Positions 10,542 through 53,083 of a stretch of DNA of 54,075 bases are shown piece after piece. Each line of letters opens with the position of its first letter. Position 1 is the first letter of the stretch. The translations under genes and the position numbers were made by a program. Where the stretch lies: the IMG/VR virus record IMGVR_UViG_3300027896_000056, positions 1 to 54,075 of that record. One strand, 5' to 3'. The notes beneath the pieces were generated by a model. The model worked only from the letters and a program-made list of their open reading frames with translations, made no database searches and was not told the DNA's origin. The stretch is from a virus.

Positions 10542-11154
10542 TTCGGGAACGAGTAACTCGGCCACGGTGCCATCCGATAGGAATATCGGTAGCACCGTGG
10601 ACCCGTCTACTTTCAATTCCATTTGTAATCCAAATCATAGCACTAAATGCCTTGCTTTTTGCAAGATTGTGTTCCGGTGAATGTTTTCTACCCTTCATAG
10701 CCCTGCTATGATTTAGATTTTGTTCAATAGAATGCGGTTTTCCTCTACATCTATCTCCTATTGCCCTACATTGTTCGGGCGTTCGTTTGATTCCTTTACT
10801 ATATTGATTTCCGAATTTAGAAATCGCTATTTTGGCTCTAGTTTCGTTAGATCGGATCGCCCCGGAAGCCCCGTCACCTCCGTCTGTCTCATTACGCAAA
10901 ATTCCGGTATTATTGTCTTTGCGACCATACCAGTTAATACATCGTCTTTCTAATGCTAGAGACCATAACTCAGTTAGCTCTGCGGCTATGATTAGTATGT
11001 AAGAATGATCACGCGGTGGTCTTATTTCATGTTTCATTTTTGTCCATGCGCGTTTATCTTTTCCTTTACCTATATAGTAAGGAGTACCATTTTTACGCAG
11101 ATAGGCATATACATAGAAACCTGATGGCGGGTTTGTTTTTGAGTAAATATTCAT
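10519..11154 (-). CDS. GIY-YIG homing endonuclease 1
   Basis: This is a site-specific nuclease that promotes its own spread. The N-terminal catalytic domain carries the GIY-YIG motifs in the form FYVYAYLR ... PYYIGKG (residues about 13-30) with the downstream Arg/Glu region (WSLALERRCINWYGRK). The middle has NUMOD-like basic repeats (KFGNQYSKGIKRTPE, KGRKHSPEH). The end MIWITNGIESRR ... IPIGWHRGR is a DNA-binding tail shared with the copy at 49268. The first 35 residues closely match the copy at 41870. It is inserted between clpS and the 11233 gene and overlaps clpS tail to tail. Confidence 0.88.
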   Translation of the reverse strand: MNIYSKTNPPSGFYVYAYLRKNGTPYYIGKGKDKRAWTKMKHEIRPPRDHSYILIIAAELTELWSLALERRCINWYGRKDNNTGILRNETDGGDGASGAIRSNETRAKIAISKFGNQYSKGIKRTPEQCRAIGDRCRGKPHSIEQNLNHSRAMKGRKHSPEHNLAKSKAFSAMIWITNGIESRRVHGATDIPIGWHRGRVTRSRINRPPQL

Positions 11155-48380: not shown

Positions 48381-49034
48381 TTAGAACTTGTAACCGATGT
48401 TAAAAGTTGTCTGCTTACTGATAGTATAATCATCAGTGTAAATGTTTGTTACACTCACGTTGACATGATCAGTTATGTCTAGAACCAGTGAAGCCTTGTT
48501 GCGAATGTAATCATGGCTCTTACCATGTTCGATCAGAAACTTCTCGTCAATGTGAGTCTTTGATGTAAACTTGTAACTGGCCCAAATGCTTTCACGAACT
48601 ACAAATTCATTGAGTCCCTTTGCTTCGGTGATGCCTGCAGATGTTTCAAAACTCAACTTTGCAATATCGTTGTGAATCAGGCGGTATCCATTACCTACAC
48701 CAATGACAACCTTATCCTTATAAACTCCAAGCTCATTGTGTTCATAGCGGCCTGATGCTTGCAGATAGTTATGCGAGTCTAGATTATAATCTACCTTAGC
48801 AAACGAATCAAATTCGTTCTTTAGTAGCATTCCCTTAGTGTCGTTATACGCATAATCTAGGTTCAAATAACGCTGCCATCTGCTATCTGTGTTCTTGTGT
48901 TCATAATCAAATGAACCTGCAATCACAGTGTTATCAGAATTTAGGATGTTGCCGCCTATTGTTCCCTGAACAGTGTCTGCCATAGCAGGCGTTGATGCAA
49001 ATACAGCAGCAAAAAGAATAAGTAGTTTCTTCAT
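48381..49034 (-). CDS. outer-membrane beta-barrel protein, DUF481-like (217 residues)
   Basis: A clear signal peptide with cleavage after AMA (residue 19) is followed by alternating beta-strand sequence with aromatic girdles and a C-terminal aromatic (NIGYKF), as in outer-membrane barrels. The pattern resembles the YdiY/DUF481 family. A phage could use it to alter receptor access or the envelope; this is inference. The presence of an exported barrel also implies a Gram-negative host. Confidence 0.75.
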   Translation of the reverse strand: MKKLLILFAAVFASTPAMADTVQGTIGGNILNSDNTVIAGSFDYEHKNTDSRWQRYLNLDYAYNDTKGMLLKNEFDSFAKVDYNLDSHNYLQASGRYEHNELGVYKDKVVIGVGNGYRLIHNDIAKLSFETSAGITEAKGLNEFVVRESIWASYKFTSKTHIDEKFLIEHGKSHDYIRNKASLVLDITDHVNVSVTNIYTDDYTISKQTTFNIGYKF

Positions 49035-49267: not shown

Positions 49268-49957
49268 TTATTTCTTATTTATTATTCTACCCTTCATCCA
49301 TCCGTCCGGAATAGTATCTGAGACTAGAATCTTTTTATTTTCAATGCCATTAGTAATCCACATAGTGCCATATTGTGAGTTTTTCTCACCCTGTGAATGT
49401 CCTATCTTAGCGTAAATCTCTTTCTTTTTTAACCTTACTTGTTCAGTGTTCATCGCTGCGATTCCGGCTTTAGTTGATTCGCGCATACGATTTGTATACT
49501 CCATGTCAACATTCCATTTTTTTCTATGCGATGCTTGCCGTCCGGTTTGTGCTGCTTTCTGTAGCTCAGTGAACCAATCAGCGCCGTGTTTCTCTTCCAT
49601 CTTACGATTTGCAGATTCACGACCTTTTCTCGCTACGTCAGGATTCGAAAATCCATATAGCTTGTTCTTATTTATATAACCGAAACCACCTGTTCCGCCC
49701 AAATTAAGGTTATATGTATCGTCTCTACTACAGTATTCTTCGTTAACCAATTCCTTTTCTTTTGCATTCATTTCATGTTCAGTGTCAAACACAAACAAAA
49801 TCTCTTTAGAAAAGTTCTCAATTCCGTATTTTTTCTTGGCAGCAAGTAATACCTTTCCTGAACCCATGTAACCATCATCTAAATTAGATGTTTCATGTTT
49901 CCCTATGTAGGTTTTACCATTTATCAAATTTGTTATTTTATATACAGTGTAAAACAT
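49268..49957 (-). CDS. GIY-YIG homing endonuclease 3
   Basis: A different GIY-YIG subtype from the other two: YTVYKITNLINGKTYIGKHE with DDGYMGSGK and the glutamate-containing NLNLGGTGG region. The middle is a basic helical linker. The end MWITNGIENKK ... IPDGWMKGRI is the same DNA-binding tail as in endonuclease 1. It sits between two tRNA genes, a typical insertion site. Confidence 0.88.
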   Translation of the reverse strand: MFYTVYKITNLINGKTYIGKHETSNLDDGYMGSGKVLLAAKKKYGIENFSKEILFVFDTEHEMNAKEKELVNEEYCSRDDTYNLNLGGTGGFGYINKNKLYGFSNPDVARKGRESANRKMEEKHGADWFTELQKAAQTGRQASHRKKWNVDMEYTNRMRESTKAGIAAMNTEQVRLKKKEIYAKIGHSQGEKNSQYGTMWITNGIENKKILVSDTIPDGWMKGRIINKK

Positions 49958-49974
49958 AATACTATTTATATGTT
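49953..49974 (-). promoter_or_regulatory. consensus late promoter TATAAATA between short arms, leaderless
   Basis: TATAAATA (49970-49963, minus strand) ends five bases before ATG. AACATA and TATGTT arms flank it, and the right arm contains the start codon. Confidence 0.6.
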
Positions 49975-50033
49975 CTCGGAAAAATAGAGAAAGTCTTACA
50001 CAATTGCTTTTTCTATCTTACCGAGACCCTAAG

Positions 50034-50109
50034 TTGCGGGGGTCGGATTTGAACCGACGATTTCCGGCTTATGAGACCAGCGAGGACGACCAGACTCCTC
50101 TACCCCACG
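50034..50109 (-). tRNA. initiator-type tRNA-fMet (CAT)
   Basis: The anticodon loop is CTCATAA. Initiator hallmarks are present: unpaired C1-A72 at the acceptor end and A11-U24 in the D stem (GAGG/CCTC). The anticodon stem has two of the three usual G-C pairs, the third being U-G. The CCA end is not encoded. Body close to bacterial tRNA-fMet (GTCGGTTCAAATCCGAC). Confidence 0.87.
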
Positions 50110-50120
50110 ATATTAAACTT

Positions 50121-50195
50121 TGGAGCGTCAGGTTGGATTCTCACCAACGTCCCCTTACTTTGCAGGCAAGTGCATGAATACTCTGCCACCGACGC
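50121..50195 (-). tRNA. tRNA-Cys (GCA), CCA encoded
   Basis: Acceptor GCGTCGG/CTGACGC with one G-T, anticodon loop CTGCAAA, discriminator U73 (a Cys identity base). The T loop is TGAGAAT rather than TTCRANN, and the D stem is short, so it is unusual but foldable. Confidence 0.8.
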
Positions 50196-50201
50196 ATTAA
50201 A

Positions 50202-50324
50202 CTATTTTGAAGAACACACTAAAGTTTCAGTCTTTCAACAAGGAAAGCATATCAGTAACTTATTTAATGTCGCAAACTTACGACTCCTTAATGTGTTCAT
50301 CAAAATAGTCTAATATTATTTAGT
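50202..50324 (-). ncRNA. late leader with 16-bp closing stem before tRNA-Cys
   Basis: A late box ACTAAATA (50324-50317, minus strand) is followed eight bases later by CTATTTTGATGAACAC, which pairs with GTGTTCTTCAAAATAG except for one position, enclosing 75 bases (plus-strand 50293-50308 and 50202-50217). Inside, GTCGT/GCGAC and CTTTC/GAAAG hairpins are visible. The tRNAs Cys and fMet follow at once, so this is probably the processed leader of a late tRNA operon. Confidence 0.6.
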
Positions 50325-50330
50325 CCTATT

Positions 50331-51194
50331 TCTTTGTGAAGCATGAGATTACTGCTTCTAGTGAGAGCCTTTGAGCCGTACCGAGTCCCTTGCGAGGATC
50401 GTTAACCCGTTATCCACTAGAGCCTTTGACGGTCATCTAGTATCTCTCAGTGCTGCCTTTTTTAGAGTCTGGCGTTTGACTCGTCATATCATGCTATTCG
50501 ACTATCAATCTTCCGCTAGCCTTGCGAGCTATTCGGTTCCGCTAAGAACCTACGTCTTCAATCCAATCAATCACTTCAGCCTTGCGAGCCTCCATGAACC
50601 CAATTCACTTTCGCGTCAGGTATTAAGCACCTTTCACATGATACCGTAGCAGTCTTTGCGTTTTGTTTGATTTGCGATCAAAATTAAAAGTTTGGGCAAA
50701 AACTGGTAACCTACCAAGATGTGCTGCTCCAGTTGCTCCATACCTTGTTAGATACAGAATACAACACACCTCATGTCTTTTGCCTTGCGGGCTACTCAAC
50801 CATACTTCACGGATCCGGAGCAAGTGTCCTCCTTCTTCGCTTGTATTGCTATCTTGCCTTTCCTTGCGGGTCAGACTCGATAACTACCTGTTAACCTTCG
50901 ATATTCGTCAGTTTGGCTGTACATCGTGAGAGCGCCAACCCTCTTATCTACTCACCGATTTGGCTCTGTAGACTATCCCTTTCGGGACGCTATACCTGAC
51001 TTACTACCTACCGCCTTTCTACGGACGGGCCTTTCGGCTAGTTCAGGCTTGCATAGATGGACTTGTATTGCTACAAGCGCAAGTTTATAGGAAACCTTGC
51101 TTTGACAGAGATTACTCCCTGCTACCCTAATGAGGCTATGCCCCCAATTCTTATATTCAATTTTCAAAGAGCTAAGACAGTTTACTGTCTTGAT
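50331..51194 (-). ncRNA. large structured non-coding RNA, GOLLD/ROOL-like class
   Basis: About 860 bases without a credible gene on either strand, transcribed leftwards from a perfect early promoter at 51201 into a tRNA cluster. The 9-mer C[TC]CGCAAGG (GNRA loop) recurs five times at 50388, 50520, 50580, 50783 and 50862. GAAA loops cap helices at 50976-50988 (CCCGAAAGGG) and 51028-51038 (GCCGAAAGGC). The 5' end is an AAGACAGT/ACTGTCTT hairpin, and a CTAGTG/CACTAG stem closes the 3' domain. Size, tRNA proximity and many GNRA loops match giant ornate phage RNAs; the exact class is not assigned. Confidence 0.75.
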
Positions 51195-51200
51195 GTAATC

Positions 51201-51229
51201 AGTATATCAAAGTTCGTAACCGTTGTCAA
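51201..51229 (-). promoter_or_regulatory. early promoter TTGACA-17-TATACT of the large RNA (minus strand)
   Basis: An almost ideal sigma70 promoter. TTGAT and ATCAA arms surround its -10 box, and an 18-base palindrome (51174-51191) begins at the transcript start. No ribosome site or start codon follows. Confidence 0.85.
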
Positions 51230-51520: not shown

Positions 51521-51549
51521 CTTATAACAAGATATCAGGCCAATGTCAA
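51521..51549 (-). promoter_or_regulatory. early promoter TTGACA-17-TATAAG (minus strand)
   Basis: The -10 lies between TGATAT and ATATCA arms. It gives a leader of about 25 bases to the 51489 gene. Confidence 0.75.
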
Positions 51550-52547: not shown

Positions 52548-52925
52548 TTACGTAAAAGTCTTCAACGCTTTCAAATCGTCACCGATCTTGTCTTCACTGA
52601 TAGGGCCAAGACCAAGACAAGTCGTAGTTGGTTCATTGAACACAGTGAATCCAGCATCAGTTACAAGACTCGTGCCGCAGATGTTCTTATACTTTTCCTG
52701 GAGAGCCTTAAGCTCGTCAACAGTATCTACGATAAGAGTAATCTTGTAAGCACGGTCGCTATTCATATATGCTCGTACTTGATCTATAAAGCACTTCTCA
52801 GGATTCAAAGAATCCCAATAAGCATGTAGATAAGCATGACCTGCTTGAGTACACATCTTACCACGAATACCGTTCATCTTTGCAACGCTTTCTTTAGCGA
52901 AGATGCAGTACATTTTAACTTTCAT
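52548..52925 (-). CDS. pth2: peptidyl-tRNA hydrolase 2 (archaeal/eukaryotic type)
   Basis: Pth2 frees tRNAs from stalled peptidyl-tRNA. The 125 residues carry the family motifs: RGKMCTQAGHA (21-31), a strand ITLIVDTVDEL, GTSLVTDAGFT with D90, and CLGLGP (103-108). The start in the ATGA overlap with the upstream gene is used rather than an ATG 12 codons earlier. Bacteria normally use the unrelated Pth1. It lies between phage tRNA genes, three bases from tRNA (CAT), so a role in tRNA recycling fits. Confidence 0.9.
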   Translation of the reverse strand: MKVKMYCIFAKESVAKMNGIRGKMCTQAGHAYLHAYWDSLNPEKCFIDQVRAYMNSDRAYKITLIVDTVDELKALQEKYKNICGTSLVTDAGFTVFNEPTTTCLGLGPISEDKIGDDLKALKTFT

Positions 52926-53083
52926 CGTTTGAACTTTCGTTTGCCAAAGTGATTTGTCCACGCTTCATCTGTGTAGGCAGGTCCTTGTCTACTCAGAAGA
53001 AGGTCTTTTTCATAAGGATCCAAACTGATCCATTCTTCATGAGTATAACGCTTGCCTGACTTAGCTAATGTCATAGCTGGCAT
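52922..53083 (-). CDS. 53-residue basic protein coupled to pth2
   Basis: GGAGG stands before ATG. The sequence KSGKRYTHEEWISLDPYEKDL and a basic end (GKRKFKR) suggest a small RNA- or ribosome-binding protein, but nothing proves it. ATGA links it to pth2. Confidence 0.6.
   Translation of the reverse strand: MPAMTLAKSGKRYTHEEWISLDPYEKDLLLSRQGPAYTDEAWTNHFGKRKFKR

Follow-up and report, generated by a model that had tools for sequence, protein, structure and literature searches.

A probable rRNA-operon-like layout of the GOLLD gene in an uncultured tailed phage

Introduction

How does a phage make large amounts of an untranslated RNA of 850 nt? We know of no explanation so far. The question arises at a locus in the 54,075-nt stretch of viral DNA analysed here, to which we refer as the window. 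From the letters of the DNA, a giant RNA resembling GOLLD or ROOL had been predicted at this locus beside tRNAs, as a divergent member of these kinds or as a class of its own (the original prediction). GOLLD is a known kind of RNA of about 850 bases. The env-38 GOLLD, with domains of 420 and 413 nt, forms a hollow RNA-only cage of 14 subunits in vitro; the ROOL cage is an 8-mer, and the tRNA neighbourhood of GOLLD is described in the same work (PMC12286853). A GOLLD RNA is reported, second-hand in PMC7567579, to accumulate in the lytic phase and to be dispensable in one prophage.

Results

Identity and structure of the RNA

The 3′ domain matches the Rfam GOLLD model RF02032 over all of its positions (1–416 of 416, E = 2.4e-52), 41 bits above the curated cut-off (Table 1). 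The model describes the GOLLD 3′ domain only; a structured 5′ domain lies upstream of the match, outside the model, and the total length is about 830 nt. A gathering scan of the window with 4227 Rfam families gave no match to ROOL. The Infernal comparison proposed with the original prediction therefore upholds its GOLLD part and removes the other two: the RNA is a further member of GOLLD, neither ROOL nor a new class. Its size and tRNA surroundings would suit several giant RNAs, and the Rfam model omits the 5′ domain, but the chance of a new class or a ROOL is negligible because of the full-length RF02032 match, and the two domain lengths, 380 and 433 nt, fit those of env-38 GOLLD (PMC12286853). 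ROOL, which forms a cage, resembles the window RNA in being a giant phage RNA near tRNAs and differs in the missing model match.

Other features of the locus are also those of env-38 GOLLD (PMC12286853). The gene is of phage origin, in a virus record, has two domains of about 400 nt and a variable linker, and adjoins tRNAs, as predicted, with two directly downstream and six within 5.3 kb. The window linker, about 69 nt long, is free of tRNAs, but in most relatives a tRNA lies within it; the linker tRNA is thus optional. One hairpin loop is a probable equivalent of L21a, the self-kissing loop of bridge B8 with a GC/CG switch (PMC12286853). At this position, assigned by alignment and approximate, the window loop has GC and that of XacN1 has UCGA, i.e. 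CG. The loop UUAGCG is nearly invariant in the clade and its stem is variable.

The structure of the 5′ domain was evaluated in an alignment of 22 sequences, for which RNAalifold gave 95 pairs. Paired cells amount to 96.6%, against 77.0% in shuffled and 31–41% in slid alignments, and the covariation score is 0.595, against 0.218 (shuffled) and at most 0.085 (slid); since the pairs come from this very alignment, they have an advantage over the slid control, but the margin is large. Both sides have changed in 70 pairs (0 of 500 shuffles), so the covarying helices that were to be looked for among homologues are strongly present in this domain. The folding energy of the single window sequence is ordinary (z = −0.94), and the evidence for structure is therefore comparative and not thermodynamic. 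The 9-mer CYCGCAAGG, predicted in five copies, occurs exactly five times in the 54-kb window, always on the minus strand within the RNA (50388, 50520, 50580, 50783 and 50862, spanning 50388–50870); shuffles contained 0.48 copies on average, with 0 of 100 reaching five. The prediction of no believable gene is borne out by the lack of a conserved reading frame among 20 homologues, which rules out a protein-coding region. In the sense direction, stop-free runs reach 86 codons at most in the window, and their maxima in relatives are 36–135 codons.

Table 1. Features of the GOLLD locus, in the order of transcription
Feature	Position	Strand	Basis
Sigma-70-type promoter, TTGACA-17-TATACT	51201..51229	-	Promoter scan; like layout in relatives
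Hairpin at the boxB position, AAGACAGTAAACTGTCTT (AAGACAG-TAAA-CTGTCTT)	51174..51191	-	−7.6 kcal/mol; 1 nt before boxA
boxA-like, putative antitermination element, GCTCTTTGAAAATT	51159..51172	-	Motif comparison; same element in rrn leaders
GOLLD 5′ domain, outside the Rfam model	50773..51152	-	Alignment A1, 22 homologues, 95 pairs
GOLLD 3′ domain, full RF02032 match	50340..50772	-	191 bits, cut-off 150
Variable linker inside the 3′ domain, without tRNA	50646..50714	-	Alignments; boundaries approximate
Hairpin with loop UUAGCG, probable L21a equivalent	50535..50551	-	Alignment A2 and PMC12286853; assigned by position, approximate
Long helix just 3′ of GOLLD, 5′ arm with GAUGA core	50286..50315	-	Fold and comparison
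Long helix, 3′ arm with UCUUC core, adjoining tRNA-Cys	50195..50224	-	Fold and comparison
tRNA-Cys (GCA), downstream of GOLLD, same strand	50121..50195	-	
tRNA-Met (CAT), downstream of GOLLD, same strand	50033..50109	-	
GC-capped stem-loop after tRNA-Met, possible transcript end, no U-tract	49974..50026	-	Fold; weak

Relatives and sampling

Homologues were taken from a phage collection and from viral contigs that had been scanned with patterns. Many align across most of the approximately 850 nt with 70–82% identity, and 28 other fetched loci reach or exceed the GOLLD cut-off. The loci are related, some being near-duplicates, and the locus counts given below are therefore not independent. The window itself is from a tailed phage known from metagenomes only: comparison with cultured phages gave no DNA match across 24 kb, and its DNA ligase is at most 35% identical to its counterparts among the matches listed. 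Five pattern matches in genome contigs contain no GOLLD and are attributed to chance. GOLLD was matched in 0 of 299 sampled Pseudomonadota genomes, a result that is uninformative, as the control was equally without a match.

Several side observations were made on GOLLD loci. In L048, a full GOLLD gene is immediately preceded by a partial, rearranged copy of the 3′ domain (L048:1832-1956). A phage-encoded tmRNA adjoins GOLLD at L126:9178-9597, L060:4700-5115, L009:3546-3962 and L127:7284-7602; the phages concerned are Xanthomonas phage XacN1, Roseobacter-group phages and Caulobacter phages. tRNAs that read stop codons (CTA, TCA) are found in GOLLD-bearing arrays (L054:4636-4710; L027:6095-6187 and 10573-10644; L126:8048-8206), and the one in XacN1 is annotated tRNA-Sup.

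Promoter and leader

The promoter agrees with the consensus at 11 of 12 positions and has a 17-nt spacer. A near-perfect promoter had been predicted and is confirmed, though it lies just outside 51194, the end proposed for the RNA. The hairpin expected at the 5′ end exists too; it belongs not to the RNA proper but to a leader that precedes it, as the conserved RNA begins near 51149. The order promoter, hairpin, GCTCTTTGAAAATT is the boxB–boxA order of rRNA leaders, with the hairpin between promoter and boxA and immediately upstream of the latter. The boxA-like element is one base off GYTCTTTAANA, a gammaproteobacterial consensus: its eighth base is G (GCTCTTTGA) where the consensus has A. GYTCTTTGA forms occur before 16S as well (L111, L112); alpha-tmRNA did not place the rRNA leaders with this form in the Alphaproteobacteria. 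Two minus-strand promoters of the window, at 51229 and 51549, have the block AAAAAAGTTCTTGACA in common. The second of these (TTGACA at 51549) serves the coding gene next door; the block lies upstream of it and no boxA follows.

The leader recurs in relatives. G[CT]TCTTT[GA][AC] is present 14–219 nt upstream of the 5′ domain in 16 of the 24 loci with intact 5′ ends. Where a promoter is recognised, it is separated from boxA by 25–37 nt, and the intervening sequence forms a hairpin, whose sequence differs between families and which ends 1–4 nt before boxA in most. Composites of promoter and boxA number 24 in 483 kb, compared with 0, 0, 1, 0 and 0 in five shuffles of the loci, and boxA-like sites number 33, compared with 6 for the reversed motif. 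Hairpins before the boxAs of composites have a mean z of −3.4, those at other sites −0.6. In most relatives the arrangement precedes GOLLD or the tRNA array that goes with it, and additional promoter–boxA sites mostly head tRNA arrays (in L022, tRNA-Asn is 35 nt downstream; in L046, tRNA-Glu is 33 nt downstream). Promoters without boxA are found in L003 and L006, four related loci (L033, L013, L026 and L049) begin at another promoter, and none of the Caulobacter phages checked has a boxA.

In cultured GOLLD phages of Ruegeria, Phaeobacter and Xanthomonas, the element heads the tRNA–GOLLD cluster. It has the sequence GCTCTTTGACAATT in DSS3_MAL1, MD18, V10 and DSS3P8, and GTTCTTTAAAAAC and GTTCTTTAACAAC in the Xanthomonas phages X1 and XacN1; the Xanthomonas phage forms are those of the gammaproteobacterial consensus GYTCTTTAANA (PMC5725501). 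For reference, 29 usable regions preceding 16S were taken from a sample of Pseudomonadota; 12 contain a perfect element, at 88–231 nt, with a stable hairpin before most of them.

The boxA-like element could be a phage-specific sequence or a part of the fold of what is still a GOLLD, rather than an antitermination signal, and its position in the window, where only about 13 nt separate it from the 5′ domain, together with the relatedness of many loci, would suit this. Against it, the distance to GOLLD varies, with unrelated inserts in between, the element also heads tRNA arrays 1–7 kb away, and boxA stays constant as the neighbouring hairpin changes sequence. Since the distance varies and tRNA arrays are also headed by boxA, membership of the GOLLD fold is judged unlikely. 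The match to rRNA leaders and the gammaproteobacterial form in Xanthomonas phages make the alternative improbable in its wider form too, and we keep to boxA as a putative antitermination signal.

When viral contigs were searched for the composite without bias, 33 stretches came up, all but one of them new. Five of the new composites precede GOLLD genes (boxA about 20 nt upstream), four head tRNAs and 23 do neither. The leader is therefore not exclusive to stable RNAs; either it serves other transcripts too or some composite matches are due to chance. Some of the 23 (within L064–L095), which have no tRNA or GOLLD downstream, stand before short ORFs, and some may head long RNAs of other kinds.

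Long helix and tRNAs downstream of GOLLD

A helix of 30 bp with one mismatch begins 23 nt past GOLLD and encloses 61 nt (z −5.7). Of 16 loci examined, 13 have such a helix, of 22–30 bp, after GOLLD; it is offset to 83 nt in L039 and placed after an insert of about 720 nt in L040. An insert of about 720 bases separates the helix from the 3′ end of GOLLD both in L040 (5047-5802) and in L018, the latter belonging to a 360-kb phage contig. The arms vary in sequence and the loops are unrelated, and most helices share a GAUGA/UCUUC core with a U·U mismatch. Searching 1.1 Mb of strand for core and pairing gave 27 sites, nearly all beside GOLLD or tRNAs; the mirrored core gave 0 sites in the same search. 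Both sides have changed in 13 of 21 pairs, a count biased upward by the choice of sites for pairing. The long helix flanks a stable RNA and covaries, and judged by its form it looks like a cutting site, perhaps for RNase III, ahead of the tRNAs. A terminator scan found none after tRNA-Met.

The helix might, on the other hand, be left over from the recombination or insertion of tRNA cassettes. The element adjoins several tRNAs (L027, L030), surrounds an inserted tRNA or tRNA-like sequence in the leader, past boxA and ahead of GOLLD, in L040, L045 and L030, and in the window has a homing endonuclease gene nearby. What speaks against a remnant is that pairing survives both-side changes, with the internal U·U mismatch conserved and the loops having nothing in common; this favours an RNA helix under selection. 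We consider the remnant rather unlikely and retain the helix as a candidate processing site.

Neighbouring genes

Three further minus-strand genes of the window were noted. A GIY-YIG homing endonuclease gene (49268-49957) is located directly downstream of the tRNA pair. A PTH2 peptidyl-tRNA hydrolase gene (52548-52961; Pfam PF01981, E 5e-15) lies in the tRNA region within 1.4 kb of GOLLD and fits an investment of the phage in translation. A DUF481 protein (48381-49034; Pfam E 2e-18) has a signal-like N-terminus and, being of outer-membrane type though phage-encoded, gives a hint of a Gram-negative host.

Discussion

We propose, with a probability of roughly three in four, that the GOLLD gene of this tailed phage is laid out like a small rRNA operon, with antitermination from the leader, cleavage at the helix and assembly of a cage. 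The RNA is a GOLLD, both of its domains are structured, and promoter, hairpin, boxA and helix are conserved. The strong promoter would start transcription near 51194, and the first 35 or so nucleotides of the transcript, comprising hairpin and boxA, would bring the antitermination complex of the host, with NusB/S10, to RNA polymerase, by analogy with rRNA. Polymerase could therefore cross the untranslated RNA and the tRNAs without termination by Rho. An RNase III-type enzyme, as the form of the helix suggests, may then cut 3′ of GOLLD and so detach it from tRNA-Cys and tRNA-Met. Once released and folded into its 5′ and 3′ domains, GOLLD would assemble with further copies into a hollow cage in the cell, if it behaves as env-38 GOLLD does in vitro. 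Our leading guess, of low confidence, is that the cage holds or shelters stable RNA or other cargo during lysis. The more general claim, that phages with cage-forming GOLLD express GOLLD and tRNA arrays as rRNA-like operons, in which a boxB–boxA leader captures NusB/S10 and the helix with the U·U mismatch is the GOLLD/tRNA processing site, seems to us more likely than not, with less assurance than the proposal for the window.

For rRNA, it is established that NusB/S10 binds boxA and that transcription is protected from Rho (PMC5725501, PMC10250234). The window shares with rRNA operons the order of promoter, hairpin and boxA, an untranslated product, tRNAs within the unit and a long helix beside the product. 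It differs in that the leader is in a phage and ahead of GOLLD rather than 16S, and in the G at the eighth base of boxA. In the nut sites of phage lambda, boxA comes before boxB, and the phage N protein binds boxB. The window resembles them in having a phage boxA and hairpin with a proposed role in antitermination, but its hairpin precedes boxA, as in rRNA, and in this order it departs from a lambda-type nut site. Among GOLLD genes, the window is distinguished by its origin in an uncultured phage clade and by its linker.

The control anatomy of the GOLLD gene, namely the rRNA-type leader and the downstream helix, appears to be undescribed. A search of the open-access literature returned no paper on GOLLD together with boxA and none on boxA, phage tRNA and antitermination together, and the accessible GOLLD papers do not mention the leader or the 3′ helix. 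The alignment of the 5′ domain carries GOLLD beyond the Rfam model, and the leader is a sequence handle for finding further long phage RNAs. Cultured systems are at hand in Ruegeria phage DSS3_MAL1 and Xanthomonas phages XacN1 and X1. The leader would tie GOLLD to the ribosome-making machinery of the host, which is suggestive given a ribosome pull-down cited in PMC12286853. An rRNA-type leader offers a direct, testable answer to how the phage may make so much GOLLD.
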